64,000 bases of DNA from Halomicrobium urmianum (GTDB lineage: Archaea; Halobacteriota; Halobacteria; Halobacteriales; Haloarculaceae). The DNA lies in the NCBI RefSeq assembly GCF_020217425.1, contig NZ_CP084090.1, forward strand, positions 2,852,001-2,916,000, read 5' to 3'. Position numbers and translations under genes: made by a program. Shown one piece after another: positions 7,519 through 49,865 of this stretch; the stretch's first letter is position 1; every line of letters begins with the position of its first letter. Below the pieces are notes generated by a model. That model did not search any database and was not told where the DNA came from. It saw nothing but the letters and a program-made list of their open reading frames with translations.

Positions 7519-7614
7519 GCGCCCGCGGTCGAGCGCTCCGCAGTCGAGCGGTGGCGCCGCACTGCCGGGCGGTACGACGAAGGTCGGCTCCGGCGACGCT
7601 ATTATGCTCCGGCA

Positions 7615-8040
7615 GTGCGAACAGTCGTCGTGGTCTACGCGACGCGCGGCCTCGTCGACACGCTGCTGCGGATGGCCAGTGACGCGGACCCGGAGTCCGT
7701 GACGATCCCGGTGGCCGTCACGCGCGCCGGTGAACTCCCCGACGCCGGCCTTCAGGACGACGTTCCCGTGTTCACGCACTTCTACATGCCCGGGGCGGGG
7801 AACTCGGTCGGGGCCGTCTTCGGGATGGACCTGGGAACGCCGGCCGGCCAGACGCAGGGCCGGTTCGTCTCCCACCCGTCGGGTCACCTCGGCGTCACCG
7901 AGGAGGACGACCTCCACGAGGTGGTGTTCGTCGCGGCCCCGCCGTGGGACGGCGACGCGTTCGCCGCGTTCGATCGACGGGGCCGCGAGCGCGACCTGAC
8001 GGTCCTGGACGTCGAACCGCCGGAAGAAGCCATCGAGTAG
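7615..8040 (+). CDS. Conserved haloarchaeal protein of unknown function
   Basis: 141 aa acidic protein starting from GTG at 7615 (MRTVVVVYATRGLVDTLLRMASD). An ATG at 7604 is out of frame. No transmembrane segment, signal peptide or catalytic motif that I recognise. Conserved-looking parts are VPVFTHFYMPGAGNSVGAVFGMD and DDLHEVVFVAAPPWDGDAF. It follows the MBL-like gene on the same strand by ~97 nt, so co-transcription is possible but not shown. Confidence 0.6.
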   Translation: MRTVVVVYATRGLVDTLLRMASDADPESVTIPVAVTRAGELPDAGLQDDVPVFTHFYMPGAGNSVGAVFGMDLGTPAGQTQGRFVSHPSGHLGVTEEDDLHEVVFVAAPPWDGDAFAAFDRRGRERDLTVLDVEPPEEAIE

Positions 8041-21422: not shown

Positions 21423-21521
21423 CCCCCGGACCTGCGACGCCCCGACCCTTCTCTCTTTGGGGGCGACGACCGCTACCGACAGTTCTTAGGCCCAGCCCGG
21501 CGAATCCCCTGACTGCCCCGC

Positions 21522-21605
21522 GGTGGGGTGGCAGAGCGGCCCATTGCGCCTGCCTTGAGAGCAGGTGTCCGAGAGGACTCCTGGGTTCAAATCCCAGCCC
21601 CACCG
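21522..21605 (+). tRNA. tRNA-Ser (anticodon UGA)
   Basis: 84 nt class II cloverleaf. The acceptor GGTGGGG pairs with CCCCACC, the anticodon loop is CTTGAGA (TGA), the long variable arm is GTCCGAGAGGAC and the T-arm is CTGGGTTCAAATCCCAG. G is the discriminator and CCA is not encoded. It is followed after 28 nt by an inverted-repeat element that copies its 3' end. Confidence 0.97.
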
Positions 21606-21633
21606 TTTCTGAGGGAACGGACGTGACCGAAGA

Positions 21634-21735
21634 GCGGTGGCTGCCGGGTTTGAGCCCTACCAGACGCAGCCCGGGAAACGAGCGCAGCGAGCGACCCGGA
21701 ACGTCTGGGTCCGGTTCAAATCCAGCAGCCACCGC
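21634..21735. repeat. tRNA-Ser-linked 102-bp inverted element
   Basis: Arms 21634-21666 and 21702-21735 pair imperfectly, with 11 perfect terminal bases (GCGGTGGCTGC / GCAGCCACCGC). The left arm resembles the reverse complement, and the right arm a direct copy, of the upstream tRNA's T-arm and acceptor. The core contains AGACGCAGCCCG and CGAGCGCAGCGAGCG. It starts 28 nt after the tRNA end, exactly as at the tRNA-Thr locus. Confidence 0.8.
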
Positions 21736-21860
21736 ATTTGCTCCGAGCGATCACGCGAGGAGCAACGGGCGTCGTTCGGGGTCCGGGAAGCGGATGGGAC
21801 GCCGGAATCGTAGTCGGAACGTAGTCGGGGCGTTTCTGTCGGATCGTCGAGCAACACGAA

Positions 21861-21870
21861 GACTTTATAC
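21861..21870 (+). promoter_or_regulatory. TATA box of the secreted-protein gene
   Basis: GACTTTATAC, 30-39 nt before the ATG at 21900, giving a leaderless or near-leaderless transcript. Confidence 0.55.
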
Positions 21871-21899
21871 CGTGAGTGAGACGCGACAACCGAGCAAAG

Positions 21900-23231
21900 A
21901 TGGGGTCGAACGACACTGATCGGCGTGGCCGCGTCGCCCTGAGCGCGGTCCTCGCTTGTGCACTGGTCCTCGCTGCGATCGCGCCTGTGACTGCGGCGCC
22001 ACGCATATTCGTTGACGAAGCAGATCTCGAGTCCGATCGAGCGATCGTCGGCGAGCGAGTAAACGTTACGCTTCAGATGGTCAACCGCGGTGACGCGGGC
22101 GCACTATCGGTCGACATCACGGCCAACGATTCGGTCGTCGCGGAGAGGCGCGTCGCTATGGACGCCGATTCCGAGCGCACGATCACGACGAACTTCACCG
22201 TAGACCAGCCGGGGACCTACAAAATCCGCGCCAACGACGAAGGAGCCGGGTGGCTGGTTGTGGGGAACTCGGTCGTCGAGACGACGGCAGAGCGTGCGGA
22301 CGGGCGCACCTCGCGAGTTCGGGTCGTCGGAGCGTCGCCGGGGTCGAGCGTGACGGCGGACTTCCCGGAGAGCGACGGCGACCTGGCGATGTCGTCGCTG
22401 ACGATGACCACGGACCGGTCGTCGTTCGATCGCAGGGTAGCGACGTACGCACCGCCGGAGAACGCGTCGTTCCCCGTCCCAGACGGACCCACGTCGACGG
22501 TGTTCGGCGCGCTCACCGTCGAGCCGGTCAACGACGTCGCTGACGACACCCTCCGCGTCAACGTCGACCGATCGCGGCTGAGCACCCGCGACGTGGCCGC
22601 GTCGGACGTGCAGGCGTACAGCTACGACGACGGTACGTACCGGACGGTCCCGACCGGCGTCGTGGAGACGACGAACGCACACGTGACCTACGAGGTTCAG
22701 GCCAACGGCTCCGCGTTCGTGCTCGGCGTCCTCCAGCCGGAGATGGAAGTCCGCGAGCGGGCCGTGAACGTCACCGAGACCGACGACGGCTGGCGGTTCG
22801 CGCTGGACGCCACGGTCGAGAACGTCGGCCCCGTCGGGGGCGAGTACGCGGCTGCGATGGCGGTCGACGGCGAGTCGGTCGACGACGGGAGCGTGGAGAT
22901 CGACGCGGGCGAGACCAGGACGCTCCACTTCGAGCACGTGGTCACCGAGAGTGGTACGTACGACGTTGCGCTCGACGGAGAGGTCGTGCAGACGGTGGCC
23001 GTCAGCGGCGACGGGTCGGACAGCGGGACCGACGGTGGGACTGACACCGCAGGGAGCGACGGCGGATCGCCGACCGCGACGGACGGCGGCGGGGCCGAGG
23101 ACGGATCGTCCGGCGGCCTGGACGTCGACCTCTCGGTGCCCAGCGTCGACGACCTCGGCGTCAGGAACGTGGTGATCGGTGCGAGCGTGGCCGTCCTCGC
23201 GGGCGGCGTGGCGCTCATTCGGCGGCTCTGA
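21900..23231 (+). CDS. Secreted, membrane-anchored surface protein
   Basis: 443 aa. A Sec signal peptide (~1-33: basic GRVALSAVLACALVLAAIAPVTAAP) is followed by Ig-like/CARDB-type beta domains, about residues 35-120 and 270-365 (VNVTLQMVNRGDAG and DATVENVGPVGGEYAAAM). A Gly/Ser/Asp/Thr-rich linker (~370-410) and a C-terminal transmembrane helix with RRL end complete it. Several N-x-S/T sites suggest N-glycosylation. The layout is that of haloarchaeal cell-surface proteins held by a C-terminal anchor. Its binding partner is unknown. Confidence 0.85.
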   Translation: MGSNDTDRRGRVALSAVLACALVLAAIAPVTAAPRIFVDEADLESDRAIVGERVNVTLQMVNRGDAGALSVDITANDSVVAERRVAMDADSERTITTNFTVDQPGTYKIRANDEGAGWLVVGNSVVETTAERADGRTSRVRVVGASPGSSVTADFPESDGDLAMSSLTMTTDRSSFDRRVATYAPPENASFPVPDGPTSTVFGALTVEPVNDVADDTLRVNVDRSRLSTRDVAASDVQAYSYDDGTYRTVPTGVVETTNAHVTYEVQANGSAFVLGVLQPEMEVRERAVNVTETDDGWRFALDATVENVGPVGGEYAAAMAVDGESVDDGSVEIDAGETRTLHFEHVVTESGTYDVALDGEVVQTVAVSGDGSDSGTDGGTDTAGSDGGSPTATDGGGAEDGSSGGLDVDLSVPSVDDLGVRNVVIGASVAVLAGGVALIRRL

Positions 23232-23380
23232 ACGGCGACGACGGCACTCGGTCACCGTCGAGCACTGCCGGCCATTCCCGGTGGTCCTCGGCCGTCCCTC
23301 GTCGCGTCCGCTCGTGATCGAGTCGTCGTCGCCGAGGCGTGACCGGGAGACTTTTGCCGAGGTCCGCCCAGCAACCCCGT

Positions 23381-23680
23381 ATGGACTGGCCGTTCGATCC
23401 CGACGGTGAGAAAGGCAGCGAGGGGCGTCGCAAGTACGGGCACGCCATCCTGGCGAAGAAGATCGACGAGGAGGAGGACTTCCCTCTCTCCGCGGACGAG
23501 TACGTCGACCAGTACGGCGACCACCCCGTCCGGATCGACTACGAGACCGTCGTGAGCGTCGAGGAGATCTTCGAGCACGTCGACCAGGCGGAGTTCGAGG
23601 ACTTCCCGGACTTCCACGGCACGGTCGGCGAGGCGCTCCGTGGGGCCGATTACTGGCCCTACCGCCTGGAACACGCCTGA
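23381..23680 (+). CDS. Conserved small haloarchaeal protein (DUF5785-like)
   Basis: 99 aa acidic soluble protein beginning MDWPFDPDGEKGSEGRRKYGHAILAKKIDEEEDFP and ending with EALRGADYWPYRLEHA. The pattern matches the haloarchaeal family DUF5785 as I remember it; no function is known to me. The start is ATG 23381, because the upstream in-frame part reads like intergenic DNA. Confidence 0.75.
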   Translation: MDWPFDPDGEKGSEGRRKYGHAILAKKIDEEEDFPLSADEYVDQYGDHPVRIDYETVVSVEEIFEHVDQAEFEDFPDFHGTVGEALRGADYWPYRLEHA

Positions 23681-23874
23681 GAGCGCGGCGGTGTGTTCCG
23701 ACGGGGCATCGGCGGTCGCGTGTAGCGTCTGGTTCAGGCGGTCGCGCGTGATCCCCGGTGCGGGGTCGCCGTTCGACCCCTTTCGGCGGTCGTTGGTCGA
23801 CTTCGTTCGGCGGTCGCCGGTCGACGTTCAGCCTCGGGAATACATACTTCTGACTCCGAGTGGTATTGTCTCGC

Positions 23875-24207
23875 ATGGCCACCCACGATCCGCTGGATGG
23901 CGAGGCGCTCCCGGAGGAGGTCGTCGACGACTTGCTCGCCGACGGACGACGCCGACGTATCGTCGACGTACTGTCCGAGGCCGACGGACCGGTGGTGATC
24001 GACGACCTCGCGACGGAGCTGTGGGCCCGGGAGACTGATACGGACCCGGAGGACGTCACCGACAACGAGCGGCGCCGCGTTCGCAACGACGTCTTCCAGC
24101 ATCACCTCCCGAAACTGACCGCGACGGAGGTCGTCGCGTACGACTCCATGATCGGGACCCTCGAACTCGACGACGCCAGTCCGGTGCTCGAGCGGCTCCG
24201 GGAGTGA
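23875..24207 (+). CDS. DUF7344-type winged-helix protein
   Basis: 110 aa. The order EEVVDDLLADGRRRRIVDVLSEADGPVVIDDLATEL, then NERRRVRNDVFQHHLPKL and VVAYDSMIGTLEL, is the small haloarchaeal winged-helix module now called DUF7344. It probably binds DNA as a one-domain transcription regulator. The target is unknown. It stands alone, with a repeat-rich 230-bp gap after it. Confidence 0.8.
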   Translation: MATHDPLDGEALPEEVVDDLLADGRRRRIVDVLSEADGPVVIDDLATELWARETDTDPEDVTDNERRRVRNDVFQHHLPKLTATEVVAYDSMIGTLELDDASPVLERLRE

Positions 24208-24222
24208 GGTGTATCGTCCCGT

Positions 24223-24280
24223 TCACTAGCGCTCCCTGTTCACTGGTACTCCCCGATCACTGGCGCTCCCTGTTCACTGG
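24223..24280 (+). repeat. Short tandem repeats in a gene-free gap
   Basis: The 24-mer TCACT(A/G)GCGCTCCCTGTTCACTGG occurs at 24223-24246 and 24257-24280. The 10 bp between them are a degraded third unit, so the tract is a ~17-bp unit repeated about three and a half times. The rest of 24208-24437 holds only a TATA-like CTTTTAGAG before the CBS gene. Confidence 0.65.
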
Positions 24281-24437
24281 CGAGCAGAAATTGATCCTTA
24301 CTGACGGATAGAATCCACCTGGTTCGACCGCCCGGACCGGGAGCGGTTACTCAGATATCCGCCCGCTAGTCTTCGCCCCGGCCGAGTAAAAGCGTGGTGC
24401 AGGTAGCTTTTAGAGCACACGTGAGCTATTCGACACC

Positions 24438-25043
24438 ATGAATACGGACGTCACCGTCAGCGAGGTGATGGATCGGGAGTTTGTCGGCGTCACCGAGTCG
24501 GACGGCGTCCTCGAGACGGCCGAGTTGCTCCTCCAGGAGGAGGTCGAGGTGGCCGTGGTCCTCCGGGGGCAGGACCCGGTCGGAGTGTTCGCCGACCGGG
24601 ACGCGCTCGCTCTGCTGGTCGCGGATGAGGGCCCCGACCGCCTGGCGGACGCGACCGTCGGCGAAGCGATGACCGAGGAGATTCCCTCGATCGAGGGCAG
24701 TGCCAGCCTGGCGGCCGCCCGCGACCGGATGACCGCCCGTGATACCCGCTGGCTGATCGTCACAGACGGCGCGGAGCCGACGGGCGTGCTCACCGAGCAC
24801 GACCTCCTGACGAGTTCGACGCTCCAGCGGGAGACGGGCACCAGCGAGGTGGAGAGCGTCGAGGCCTCCGCCAGACGAGTCGAAGCAGGACGGGAGGCCG
24901 ACGCCGGAGCGAGCGCAACGGAGGGGGCCGGCGGACAGAGCGGCTTCGAGGACCAGAGCATCTGCGAGAAGTGCGGGTCGCTCACGCACGACCTGTCCTC
25001 GTTCAACGGGCAGTTGCTGTGCGCCGACTGCCGGGACATCTGA
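24438..25043 (+). CDS. CBS-pair protein with C-terminal zinc ribbon
   Basis: 201 aa. Two CBS motifs lie at residues ~7-62 and ~72-128 (VGVTESDGVLETAELL..., IPSIEGSASLAAARDRMTARDTRWLIV). A disordered linker follows, then a zinc-ribbon-like end with CEKCGSL and CADC. CBS pairs sense adenine nucleotides or SAM. The zinc ribbon suggests nucleic-acid or protein contact. Its stop overlaps the start of the GNAT gene (TGATG), so both are co-translated. Confidence 0.85.
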   Translation: MNTDVTVSEVMDREFVGVTESDGVLETAELLLQEEVEVAVVLRGQDPVGVFADRDALALLVADEGPDRLADATVGEAMTEEIPSIEGSASLAAARDRMTARDTRWLIVTDGAEPTGVLTEHDLLTSSTLQRETGTSEVESVEASARRVEAGREADAGASATEGAGGQSGFEDQSICEKCGSLTHDLSSFNGQLLCADCRDI

Positions 25044-25510
25044 TGGAAGTCGTCCTCGCCGACGTCGACGCGGCCGACGCCGTCGTCGACCTCTGGACAG
25101 CGCTGGCTGCCGATCAGCTGGCTCACGGCTCGCACATCCTCCCCGGCGAGAACCGAGCGACTATCCGCGAGTCCGTCGACCGCCGCCTGGTCGCCGACGA
25201 ACTCCTCGTCGCCCGCCGCGACGGCGCCACGGTCGGGTTCGTCATGTTCACCGTCGAGTGCGGTCGGTTCGAGCAGGACGCCGACCGCGGCATCGTCGAG
25301 AACATCTACGTGACCCCGGCTCATCGAGGTTGCGGAGTCGGAAGCGAGCTACTGGCGGCCGCCGAGCGGACGCTCGAAGAACGGGGCGTCGACGCCGTCG
25401 CGCTGGACGTCATGGCCGACAACGAGTCCGCCCGGCGGTTCTACCGCCGCCACGGGTACGAACCCCATCGCGTCCAGATGGAGAAGGCGACGGAAAGCGA
25501 CACGCTCTAA
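25043..25510 (+). CDS. GNAT-family N-acetyltransferase
   Basis: 155 aa single GNAT domain. The acetyl-CoA pyrophosphate loop is VTPAHRGCGVGSELLAAAERTLEERGV, followed by LDVMADNESARRFYRRHGYEPH. The start is ATG 25043, overlapping the CBS stop by one base. The acceptor substrate is not known; the tight linkage suggests that the CBS protein might regulate it. Confidence 0.88.
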   Translation: MEVVLADVDAADAVVDLWTALAADQLAHGSHILPGENRATIRESVDRRLVADELLVARRDGATVGFVMFTVECGRFEQDADRGIVENIYVTPAHRGCGVGSELLAAAERTLEERGVDAVALDVMADNESARRFYRRHGYEPHRVQMEKATESDTL

Positions 25511-25536
25511 ACACTCCCCGCGCTACGTGAGAGTGC

Positions 25537-25610
25537 GCCAGGGGAGCTTGGGTGGTCCAAGCACTCGACTTGTAATCGAGAGTTCGTGGGTTCAAATCCC
25601 ACCCCTGGCT
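25537..25610 (+). tRNA. tRNA-Thr (anticodon UGU)
   Basis: 74 nt cloverleaf. The acceptor GCCAGGG pairs with CCCTGGC, the anticodon stem/loop is CTCGA-CTTGTAA-TCGAG (TGT) and the T-arm is GTGGGTTCAAATCCCAC, with discriminator T. CCA is not encoded and there is no intron. Confidence 0.97.
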
Positions 25611-25638
25611 CTTCTCGCCGAGTGAAACGAGACGTGAG

Positions 25639-25739
25639 AGCCATCTGGGATTTGAGCCCTGGGAGTCGCAGCCCGCGCAGCCGAGCGGAGCGAGGCGAGC
25701 AGGGATGTCTCGATATGGTTCAACTCCCACCCCCGGGTT
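25639..25739. repeat. tRNA-Thr-linked 101-bp inverted element
   Basis: Starts 28 nt after the tRNA end. The left arm (AGCCATCTGGGATTTGAGCC) is close to the reverse complement of the tRNA 3' end. The right arm (GGTTCAACTCCCACCCCC) is close to a direct copy. The core has AGTCGCAGCCCG and CGAGCGGAGCGAGG, matching the element behind tRNA-Ser. Confidence 0.75.
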
Positions 25740-25830
25740 CGACTGTTCTCTCTTGGATGGCTGCGACACTCGTCCCGTGCTTCGTGTCGTCGGTCGAGAG
25801 ACGACTGGTCGCGGGAAGAGAGAGAGAGAG

Positions 25831-25850
25831 ACACCACTGTTGCAAGTGAA
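25831..25850 (-). repeat. Origin recognition box 1
   Basis: Minus-strand TTCACTTGCAACAGTGGTGT, identical to the box at 27982-28001 but inverted. It directly follows a (GA)n tract (~25817-25830). Confidence 0.8.
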
Positions 25851-25920
25851 GCGTGAAAGAGGCGTGGGCTCCGATCGGCGAGCCCGTCCGTCGACTACGC
25901 CGACAGTCGTCGTGGTTCCT

Positions 25921-25974
25921 AGTGGTATTTAATTACATCTAGCTCCATCCATTGGTATCTAATGGAGAGGGGGA
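25921..25974. other. AT-rich candidate DNA-unwinding element
   Basis: A clearly AT-richer stretch in a very GC-rich region. It contains two near-identical 10-mers 30 bp apart, GGTATTTAAT (25924-25933) and GGTATCTAAT (25954-25963). It lies between box 1 and the boxes before orc1, the place expected for initial strand opening. Confidence 0.5.
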
Positions 25975-26055
25975 GTACAGACTTTCTCCAGTACCGAAGG
26001 CAACCACTGATTAACGGAAGGGACCATCGAAGAACGCTGTCACACATATCACTGG

Positions 26056-48332: not shown

Positions 48333-49865
48333 TCAACCCAGGTAGTCGTCGAGCGGGTCGTCGTCGGTCTCGGGCTCGAAGGAGTCGACGCCCTCGTCGG
48401 CGAGCGTCCCCTCGTCGGGTTCGTCTTCTGCCCGTTCGCCGTCGCCGAAGCCGTTCCCGGTCTCGTCGGCGTCGAATCGGCCCTCGTCACCGGCGGCGTC
48501 GCCGCCGACGGTCGGATCGTCGTCGGCTGCGGGCCCGTCGGCGAGCTCGCGGTCGGCAACTCCGCGGCCGGTACCAGCCGGATCAGCTCCGGCCGACTCC
48601 CCGGCGTCCGGGCCGTCGGTCGCGGGCGATCCCTCGCCCGGATCGATGACGGTCTCTCGGTCTACGGCCGGCCCGTCGGCGTCGAAGCGGTCCCGTTCCG
48701 GGCCGCGGTCGCTTCCGGGCGTCGCGCTCGCGCCGTCACCGGCGTCGACTCGCCCGGTCTGATCGGCTCCTTCCCCCGACGAGGCGAACGGATCGTCACC
48801 GGCGGGCTCGTCAGCCGCGACGCCGTCCGCCTGCTCGCGGAGCTGGTCCCAGGTCCGGCCCTCATCGGGGCTGGCCCGGGGATCGGCCCCCTCGCCCGGC
48901 AGGTCGTCCGCTTCCTCGCGTCCGTTGCCTGGCGCCTCGTCGCTCAGGCCGTCGCCTCGCTCGCCGGCTGTCGCACCGCCGGCCGGGCTCTCGGTCTCAT
49001 CGGCGGCCTCCGCCGCCTCGGACTGCTCGAACTCGGAGGGATCCGGCGGGGTCCACTCCGGCGGCTCGCCGTCGGCGGGCTCGGTCGCCCTCGTATCGGC
49101 GGGCTCCCGGGGCGCGTCGCCCGCGTCTACCGGTTCACCGCCCCCGGAGTCGGGTTGTACGTCGCCCGCGGCGTTCCCCTGCTCACCGGGTCGATCCGCC
49201 TGCGTCTGGTCGGCTGCGCCGGCCGCGCTGGCCGCATCGGCCGCGTCGCCGACCCCGGGCGCTCCGTCAGCCGCGCTCGGCGACGCCTCGGCAGGCCCCT
49301 CGCGGGGAGCCGGTTCCGGGTCGGGATCAGGCGTCGTATTCGGCTCGGAAGCGGCCGAGTTAGCGCCGGACGGGGGCGACTCCGCGTCGCCCTCGTCGGC
49401 GGCGGACCGCGCGGCGGCCGACGTCGCTGCGCCCGTCGGTTCCTCGTCCGCCCCGTCGGCCTCCGCGTCGTTCGATTCTCCCTCCTCGGTTCGTTCGTCG
49501 CCCCCGGATACGCCGGCCCCGCCGGACGTCGCGTCCGTCTCCGGTTCGTCGTCAGCCACGGTGCTCGCGGCGTCTCCCGCCGACTGCGCGGCCCCGGTAG
49601 CAGCGGCGTCGACGACTAACTTGTAGAACAGTCCGAACACGCCGGTCAGCGCCACCAGCACGCCGGCGACGACGAGGAGGGCGCCGACGGCCACGTAGGG
49701 GTTCGACAGGGCGGCCAGCGAGGGACTCGCCAGCGAGGCGCCGCTGCTCGCGGCGACGTACGCGCCGGCCGCCGCGGGGACGCCACCGAAGGCCACCGCT
49801 CCGGAGAGATAGCCCACGAACTTCGCGCCGTACTTGTACGCGTCGGCCAGCCCAACGGCTTGCAT
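48333..49865 (-). CDS. Membrane-anchored protein with very long acidic disordered tail
   Basis: 510 aa. The N-terminal ~95 residues have two to three hydrophobic segments (YLSGAVAFGGVPAAAGAYVAA and VAVGALLVVAGVLVALTGVFGLFYKLVVDAA). The remaining ~410 residues are low-complexity, made of D, E, A, G, P, S and T. I chose the ATG at 49865 (MQAVGLADAYKYGAKFVGYL). The N terminus looks like a haloarchaeal small membrane protein. The tail would be cytosolic or extracellular depending on topology. It sits between ipk and rnj. Confidence 0.7.
   Translation of the reverse strand: MQAVGLADAYKYGAKFVGYLSGAVAFGGVPAAAGAYVAASSGASLASPSLAALSNPYVAVGALLVVAGVLVALTGVFGLFYKLVVDAAATGAAQSAGDAASTVADDEPETDATSGGAGVSGGDERTEEGESNDAEADGADEEPTGAATSAAARSAADEGDAESPPSGANSAASEPNTTPDPDPEPAPREGPAEASPSAADGAPGVGDAADAASAAGAADQTQADRPGEQGNAAGDVQPDSGGGEPVDAGDAPREPADTRATEPADGEPPEWTPPDPSEFEQSEAAEAADETESPAGGATAGERGDGLSDEAPGNGREEADDLPGEGADPRASPDEGRTWDQLREQADGVAADEPAGDDPFASSGEGADQTGRVDAGDGASATPGSDRGPERDRFDADGPAVDRETVIDPGEGSPATDGPDAGESAGADPAGTGRGVADRELADGPAADDDPTVGGDAAGDEGRFDADETGNGFGDGERAEDEPDEGTLADEGVDSFEPETDDDPLDDYLG

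Follow-up and report, generated by a model that had tools for sequence, protein, structure and literature searches.

Genes for tRNAs are classic landing sites of mobile DNA. In integrons, tandem cassette arrays are held at one anchoring site and the attC sites are hairpins with an outer box carrying AAC/GTT and an inner stem. Here we report on small units that follow tRNA genes in haloarchaea, each carrying beside a conserved core an inverted and a direct copy of parts of the 3' end of its own host tRNA. Two of them lie in a stretch of 64,000 nucleotides of the Halomicrobium urmianum genome (contig NZ_CP084090.1; G000:C1:2852001-2916000 in our numbering, where G000 is the genome), called the window hereafter. 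Its sequence relatives place it in a haloarchaeal chromosome. We found no description in open-access PubMed Central text of a widespread family of such small hairpin units with arms that match the host tRNA base for base. These tRNA-tail hairpin modules look like an apparently undescribed kind of small mobile or recombining DNA.

The units are like integron attC sites in their hairpin layout and tandem arrays; unlike integron arrays they have a tRNA as anchor and isotype-specific arms, and no IntI and no cassette genes were seen. The tRNA-like elements of Haloferax volcanii (Holzle et al. 2012), known here by title alone, are reportedly sequences resembling tRNAs outside tRNA genes, while our units hold only the 3' end of a tRNA. 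SMR-A of Haloquadratum walsbyi is, in the passages of its report that deal with it (PMC3119063), a gene-free element of about 110 bp with no known mobilising enzyme and a preference for palindromes; it has terminal inverted repeats, makes no target duplication and targets PATEs/IS605 palindromes. The units resemble SMR-A in being haloarchaeal, in a size of about 110 bp, in lacking genes and a known mobilising enzyme, and in their strong target preference. They differ in lying at tRNA ends, in the direct target copy (nt 52/53-73) that follows each counted unit and in having arms that follow the target. Integrative elements targeted to tRNA genes (SSV, SNJ2, pT26-2), going by the relevant part of PMC8371274, attach at the tRNA 3' end, leave the tRNA intact and have the T-stem loop among the regions used. 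Our inserts are likewise flanked by a direct repeat of the tRNA 3' end, with the tRNA intact; they are far smaller than those elements, are built around a conserved hairpin core with an inverted arm specific to the host, and are found at many isotypes of one genome. With 87-238 bp the units cannot encode a recombinase or integrase. Partial tRNA ends resulting from integration are known in Thermococcaceae, according to the portion of PMC9897764 concerned with them. Our units may account for partial tRNA ends in haloarchaeal genomes. Casposons, in the sections of PMC4046053 on their target sites and gene content, insert in some cases at tRNA 3' ends with target duplication; they are gene-bearing, encode Cas1 and PolB and have terminal inverted repeats. 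The units, judged by length and sequence, have neither of these genes, and no terminal inverted repeats around the whole unit were seen by eye.

Both units of the window are on the forward strand. The initial annotation had placed them behind tRNA-Ser(UGA) (21522..21605) and tRNA-Thr(UGU) (25537..25610), genes that were borne out by ARAGORN and by Rfam RF00005. The Ser unit consists of a leader region of 28 nt directly 3' of the tRNA (21606..21633), a left arm (21634..21656) with the anti-T-loop part at 21646-21656 (GGGTTTGAGCC), a core hairpin (21657..21712; AGACGCAGCCCG ... CGAGCGCAGCGAG ... GGAACGTCT) and a right arm (21713..21734) that is a diverged copy of tRNA-Ser nt 52-73. The Thr unit has its leader region at 25611..25638, a left arm complementary to the host T-loop and the 3' strand of the T-stem at 25646..25658 (TGGGATTTGAGCC), its core at 25659..25716 (AGTCGCAGCCCG ... 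CGAGCGGAGCGAG) and a right arm copying tRNA-Thr nt 52-73 at 25717..25738. Both arms and the common core motifs are thus as initially described, and the right arms match the 3' 22-mer of their tRNAs at 17/22 (Ser) and 19/22 (Thr) positions. A gap of 28 nt between tRNA and element was also confirmed for both (element starts 21634 and 25639); as a constant spacer it did not hold, for the stretch between tRNA and left arm varies among other units and resembles, by eye, a separate hairpin. The leaders of the Ser and Thr units were assigned by eye from their position, as in other units.

Among their relatives the window pair are two decayed members. The Ser unit falls under the 16/20 threshold used below and is absent from the counted units; the Thr unit is counted. 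On folding, an exceptional hairpin is seen for the Ser element alone (z -7.8 against shuffles); the Thr element is no better than its shuffles (z -0.3). Fold quality as a defining property was rejected because the Thr element does not out-fold shuffles. An Rfam cmscan of window positions 21500-26000 at E<=1 gave five matches, all on tRNAs, and no family match beyond chance on the units; one of the five, to a tymovirus tRNA-like family (25543-25642, E 0.41), lies on the Thr tRNA and extends 32 nt into the leader.

The same plan recurs behind many of the 50 tRNA matches in the window's own genome. A unit begins with a leader directly behind the tRNA, usually a hairpin by eye. Next comes a left arm in which host nt 54-64, the T-loop and upper T-stem, are reverse-complemented; then the conserved core (consensus AGWCGCAG...GGAMCGTCT) with a variable tip and, as right arm, a near-exact copy of host nt 52/53-73. 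We counted units by script in four congeneric genomes, G000 and its three congeners G001, G002 and G005, requiring at least 16 matches to the last 20 nt of the tRNA and a unit of 50-300 nt, and dropping four tandem true tRNAs, two short repeats and one far match. This resulted in 100 counted units at 72 of 189 tRNA matches (20/50 loci in G000, 12/44 in G001, 19/44 in G002 and 21/51 in G005). They correspond to 99 distinct pieces of DNA, one unit having been counted twice behind a tandem tRNA-Glu pair of G000; two further pairs are identical in sequence and are true tandem copies. Unit length is 87-238 bp with a median of 128, comparable to haloarchaeal SMR (~110 bp), the units are non-coding, and the copy is exact over 20 nt in 62 of the 100. 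By eye, the whole insert from leader to core has no matching ends, and core and arms form a hairpin in some units.

The association with the tRNA is specific in position, strand and isotype. A copy of at least 16/20 was found within 900 nt downstream at 77/189 loci, where 20 of the 189 were scanned over 400 nt only and 5 of the 77, which were tandem tRNAs or other repeats, did not enter the unit count. The corresponding controls gave 6/169 upstream, 4/189 on the opposite strand and 4/189 for the 3' end of another isotype. The initial annotation also held that two tRNAs it put in the ribosomal cluster, Leu-CAG and Ser-GCT, have no such element, and indeed no copy follows them in G000 or its congeners.

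Both arms have sharp limits and track the host. Compared to its own tRNA, the copy has a per-position identity of 0.81-1.00 across the last 22 nt and of 0.34 at the next base; compared to other isotypes, identity is 0.27-0.55 at most of the variable positions. The left arm was anchored by a generic T-loop complement in 89/100 units, and its high T-loop complementarity is therefore given by construction. Its host specificity is seen at nt 57, 59 and 62-64, falls to background from nt 65 outward, and complementarity is lost inside nt 52. Both arms therefore stop on their inner side at the same point, nt 52/53 at the T-loop base, as would also result from a paired hairpin. Over 71 first units the left-arm match summed to 718, against a permutation mean of 633.7 (sd 7.9), a sum that 0/10,000 within-genome permutations reached.

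Orthologous tRNAs that differ at nt 56-64 provide a second test, in which the counts are of units and not of independent events; it covered pairs with up to 6 differences in the last 22 nt and units with an anchored left arm, outside the tRNA-rich contig of G005. The left arm carries the base of its own tRNA in 38 cases, that of the ortholog in 4 and neither in 10, while the copy carries its own tRNA's base in 50 cases, the ortholog's in 2 and neither in 0. The clearest case is tRNA-Lys(UUU) of G005, which has a changed base in its T-loop; four counted units with differing cores and leaders show the change in both of their arms (a fifth unit is masked by N). Where the copy has mutated, the left arm follows the tRNA at 40 positions, the copy at 6 and neither at 4, the 40 being inflated by shifted T-loops. 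A fast self-correction of the hairpin, by which the left arm would follow the mutated copy, is not supported by these counts. Taken together, the permutation and ortholog tests strongly support the earlier proposal that the arms match their own host tRNA and were thus acquired from it or co-evolve with it; the idea that other tRNAs have similar structures, with arms that match better than in shuffled pairs, survived as well.

We favour the reading that these are non-coding, non-autonomous insertion or recombination units that are specialised for the T-loop of tRNA genes and derive their arms from the target, and give it a probability of about one half. It draws on the anatomy of the units, their association with tRNAs, the boundaries and host tracking of the arms, the tandem arrays and the presence or absence of units between congeners (one clean pair), all of which are observed. 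From these we infer an origin by insertion, a templating of both arms and an enzyme provided in trans. The core would be the insertion or recombination module, with the start of the T-loop as crossover or insertion point. Both outer arms would be written from the host tRNA whenever a unit is established or re-established, and the tRNA gene would therefore stay whole. Arrays would lengthen and shorten through recombination between direct copies, and the enzyme would act in trans.

A more specific version, which we put forward tentatively and would ourselves bet against, is a target-templated mobile element of which only the core hairpin moves, each insertion copying both arms from the host tRNA at a single T-loop breakpoint. 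If true, such an element refits itself to every tRNA with the gene intact, and its spare tRNA ends would be alternative landing sites for viruses and islands. Arms written from the target would amount to an unusual self-adapting insertion mechanism; arms held by selection would indicate that archaeal tRNA precursors carry an RNA layer so far unrecognised. Because the breakpoint at nt 52/53 is sharp and unit number varies naturally between congeners, the mechanism can be tested.

Unit number differs between orthologous tRNAs, which carry from 0 to 5 of them. Nine loci aligned between G001 and G002 yielded one clean pair of an empty and a filled site; apart from Arg-TCG, Gly-GCC and Leu-CAA, taken up below, the other pairs gave no clean alignment or differ by several units. 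The clean pair is at Asn-GUU, where G001 has one unit and G002 cleanly lacks it. Since G000, G001 and G005 all have the unit, the empty site of G002 is best read, from the alignments, as a precise loss. Arrays reach five units; in the one behind Glu-UUC of G005, four units form an ABAB-type duplication and a fifth comes after them. Among the compared loci, units were thus seen to be lost precisely, duplicated and displaced. The suggestion of the initial annotation that a tRNA-3'-targeted mobile element or its remnant is involved is accordingly the best-supported class of explanation, even though a move into a new tRNA was never caught.

In cores, leaders and junctions, one isotype compared across genomes shows more similarity than different isotypes compared within a genome, with mean alignment scores of 4.83 vs 1.08 for the core and 3.71 vs 0.17 for the leader. 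Units therefore mostly persist at their tRNA. Cores at least 88 % alike, together with host-specific arms, occur in 13 unit pairs whose tRNAs differ at the 3' end; some of these pairs are between near-identical tRNAs of one amino acid. Recent jumping from isotype to isotype, for which the 13 pairs were considered as evidence, is weakened by the isotype lineages and by the wide conservation of the core.

The range of the family was explored with a model of the core, R1, built from 15 sequences that include both window units, which it matches by construction (G000:C1:2873645-2873734 for Ser and G000:C1:2877647-2877738 for Thr). An RNAalifold consensus of the core misaligned the tip, and R1 served for finding units only. 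R1 matches 22 of 25 relatives and, at E<=1e-4, 140 of 145 genomes drawn from the class, the tRNA linkage having been tested on part of them. In the three congeners 80/94 matches, and in three genomes of other genera 52/67, have a listed tRNA on their own strand less than 1 kb upstream; in the latter three genomes, 18/43, 14/55 and 8/46 tRNAs have a match. Among 30 fetched high-scoring loci of relatives (6 of them from the four congeneric genomes), 28 follow a tRNA, with copies of 17-20/20.

The 14 far matches in congeners were rejected as evidence for non-tRNA sites in the genus. Two are behind an intron-bearing tRNA-Trp (by eye), three behind tRNA-Gln and one behind tRNA-Pro, tRNAs that the family search overlooked; three, at partial ends of tRNA-Ala, -Arg and -Val, are orphans, and the Ala orphan read on the opposite strand gives one more; one is in the tRNA-rich contig of G005, where no tRNA was detected directly upstream; L150, L186 and L224 make up the unassigned remainder.

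Both exceptions among the 30 fetched loci are from G013, L103 (G013:C43, ~7571-7700) and L081 (G013:C22), in both of which tRNA-Asp sequence adjoins or encloses the left arm and core. At one locus tRNA-Asp is complete as far as the T-stem, has the core at the base of the T-loop and continues with GGTTC behind it; at the second only ~10 nt of the tRNA 5' part precede an identical left arm. A second tRNA-Asp was not found in this 81%-complete assembly with a 25-nt anticodon-arm pattern at up to 3 mismatches. The interruption may reflect a primary insertion at the breakpoint predicted above, a deletion, or a faulty assembly.

Two dense tRNA clusters came up in the course of this survey. In G005, eleven tRNA matches within 3.4 kb (G005:C2:76238-79789, L217), perhaps part of a virus or plasmid, have two unit-like R1 matches among and after them. 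In G012 a cluster of more than 10 tRNA matches in 2.6 kb (G012:C1:2635124-2637763) has one R1 match behind it.

The core also occurs in a different setting. The exact core pattern is present in at least 120 stretches of named genomes. R1, run on 80 of these and on 8 viral loci, matched 31 of the 88, all titled as haloarchaea, and the bacterial pattern matches therefore look like chance. A different repeated sequence is found no more than 260 nt from the core at 22 of these 31 loci, 21 of them from Halorubrum and 1 from Haloarculaceae; in this second context, where unlisted loci were also looked at, the core often has its own leader and an apparent local duplication, and versions of the repeat without the core are present as well. 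The tRNA context is therefore the main one in the window's genus and not the only one. At Halorubrum loci such as L241, L248, L256, L286 and L298 the core was seen within a different repeat (GGGGAGGCGTGAGGTGCGG...GGGACTCAAAGGGGCAG). As to vehicles, none of the 8 viral pattern loci matched R1 and a typed unit gave no phage match; one plasmid match, in Natrinema thermotolerans, has no annotated feature beneath.

Large stretches also sit at such tRNA ends. In G001 the Ala-GGC and Arg-TCG units are found 44 and 58 kb downstream of their tRNAs, on the same strand, behind a 13-nt tRNA-end remnant (G001:C2:513501-559000, L356-L358, for the 44-kb stretch at tRNA-Ala(GGC); G001:C2:150001-209000, L353-L355, for the 58-kb stretch at tRNA-Arg(TCG)). 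At the end of the 44-kb stretch, next to the remnant, is a tyrosine integrase gene (PF00589, E 1.2e-11); no integrase was seen among the open reading frames examined at the ends of the 58-kb stretch. Phage-tail-like and AAA-ATPase-like reading frames were noticed by eye in the latter. The direct repeats of these large stretches are ~13 nt long and their ends are, by eye, unlike unit cores. In G002 a 1.6-kb insert with a Fic/DOC gene (G002:C1:1227501-1247500, L359, offset ~600-2200) is flanked by copies of the tRNA-Arg end and lies behind the copy of a unit rather than behind the tRNA; its ends are by eye like those of the 58-kb stretch of G001, and no recombinase gene was seen in it. From their arrangement, unit copies may serve as alternative landing sites for larger elements, the order of events being unproven.

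Several observations weigh against the units being insertions templated by the tRNA. Insertion into a previously empty tRNA was not polarised at any compared locus. The 'empty' Gly-GCC and Leu-CAA loci of G001 retain part of the leader, meaning that imprecise loss happens as well, and a clean-looking pair at Arg-TCG proved to be displacement by a larger stretch. The isotype-bound likeness of cores and leaders implies that recent jumping between tRNAs is rare within the genus. No recombinase or transposase tied to the units was found, and no terminal inverted repeats bounding the whole unit were seen by eye. In the other genera 15/67 matches are not behind a listed same-strand tRNA, 3 of them being 59-163 nt from a tRNA on the opposite strand; among the 88 pattern loci a tRNA was detected upstream in only 7/39 R1 matches, and most named Halorubrum matches are not tRNA-linked. 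The G013 case, finally, could be a deletion rather than an insertion.

Other explanations were considered. The unit hairpin could be a folded single-strand recombination site of the attC type, with the tRNA T-arm as receiving site and the crossover at G53/T54; the arms would be the outer box, followed by an inner stem and a variable tip, and a tyrosine recombinase would conservatively insert and excise units. The left arm would then follow the tRNA because the hairpin must fold. We consider this unlikely. The single inner boundary of both arms agrees with it, as do the isotype-bound lineages, which fit a conservative exchange by a unit in need of the right tRNA end. The T-stem loops of tRNA genes are sites of tyrosine recombinases in the account given in the part of PMC8371274 on attachment regions, and the 44-kb stretch inserted at the tRNA-Ala end does finish in a tyrosine integrase gene. 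However, a dedicated integrase was not found, the 13 unit pairs combine near-identical cores with host-specific arms, and the left arm mostly ignores changes in the copy (an effect that is partly an artefact of shifted T-loops), so that folding does not seem tightly maintained. We judge it slightly more doubtful that the unit is an RNA-level trailer, co-transcribed with the tRNA, in which arm or hairpin modulates folding, 3' processing or termination and selection keeps the arms matched. The strand bias (80/94 and 52/67 downstream on the tRNA strand, opposite-strand copies at 4/189 loci), the left arm following the tRNA rather than a mutated copy, and a core conserved across the class all speak for such a role. 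The processing role that the initial annotation had offered as its other option is nevertheless less likely, because orthologous tRNAs within one genus often have no unit (12-21 of 44-51 loci per genome have units, in arrays of 1 to 5). Moreover, an RNA role is not obvious for a DNA copy that reproduces the discriminator end exactly, the Thr element of the window folds no better than shuffles, the core is also found away from tRNAs and the units have no Rfam family match beyond chance level.

That the units are relics of proviruses or islands, end scars of larger elements integrated at tRNA 3' ends and later deleted, we regard as improbable. The 44-kb stretch with its integrase gene and the 58-kb stretch do sit at such ends, at tRNA-Ala(GGC) and tRNA-Arg(TCG), yet their direct repeats are ~13 nt long, their ends are by eye unlike unit cores, and one conserved core in 140/145 genomes is not expected of random scars. 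Least probable in our estimate is a Cas1/casposase-like or other staggered-cut enzyme, with the copy as a target-site duplication of ~22 bp. The copy is on the far side of the insert, as expected of a duplication, and casposon duplications measure 1-27 nt, with five at tRNA 3' ends, in the target-site data of PMC4046053; in those same data, casposon target sites overlap just 4-7 tRNA nucleotides. Duplication alone does not explain the host-specific inverted left arm, and by eye the inserts have no terminal inverted repeats.

A few minor features were noted along the way. In the window, ARAGORN calls a tRNA-Arg(CCG) on the minus strand (48457-48549) that is absent from the Rfam matches and is probably a false call. 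By eye, the motif GAGCGNAGCGAG is repeated in leaders and cores genome-wide. About +215 to +300 downstream of tRNA-Ala(GGC) of G000, on the minus strand (G000:C1:407234-407305), lies a short element with long inverted ends (TATAGTAGAAATTGAA...TTTCAATTCCTACTATA), and a near copy of it is found upstream of tRNA-Thr(GGT) (G000:C1:1485047).

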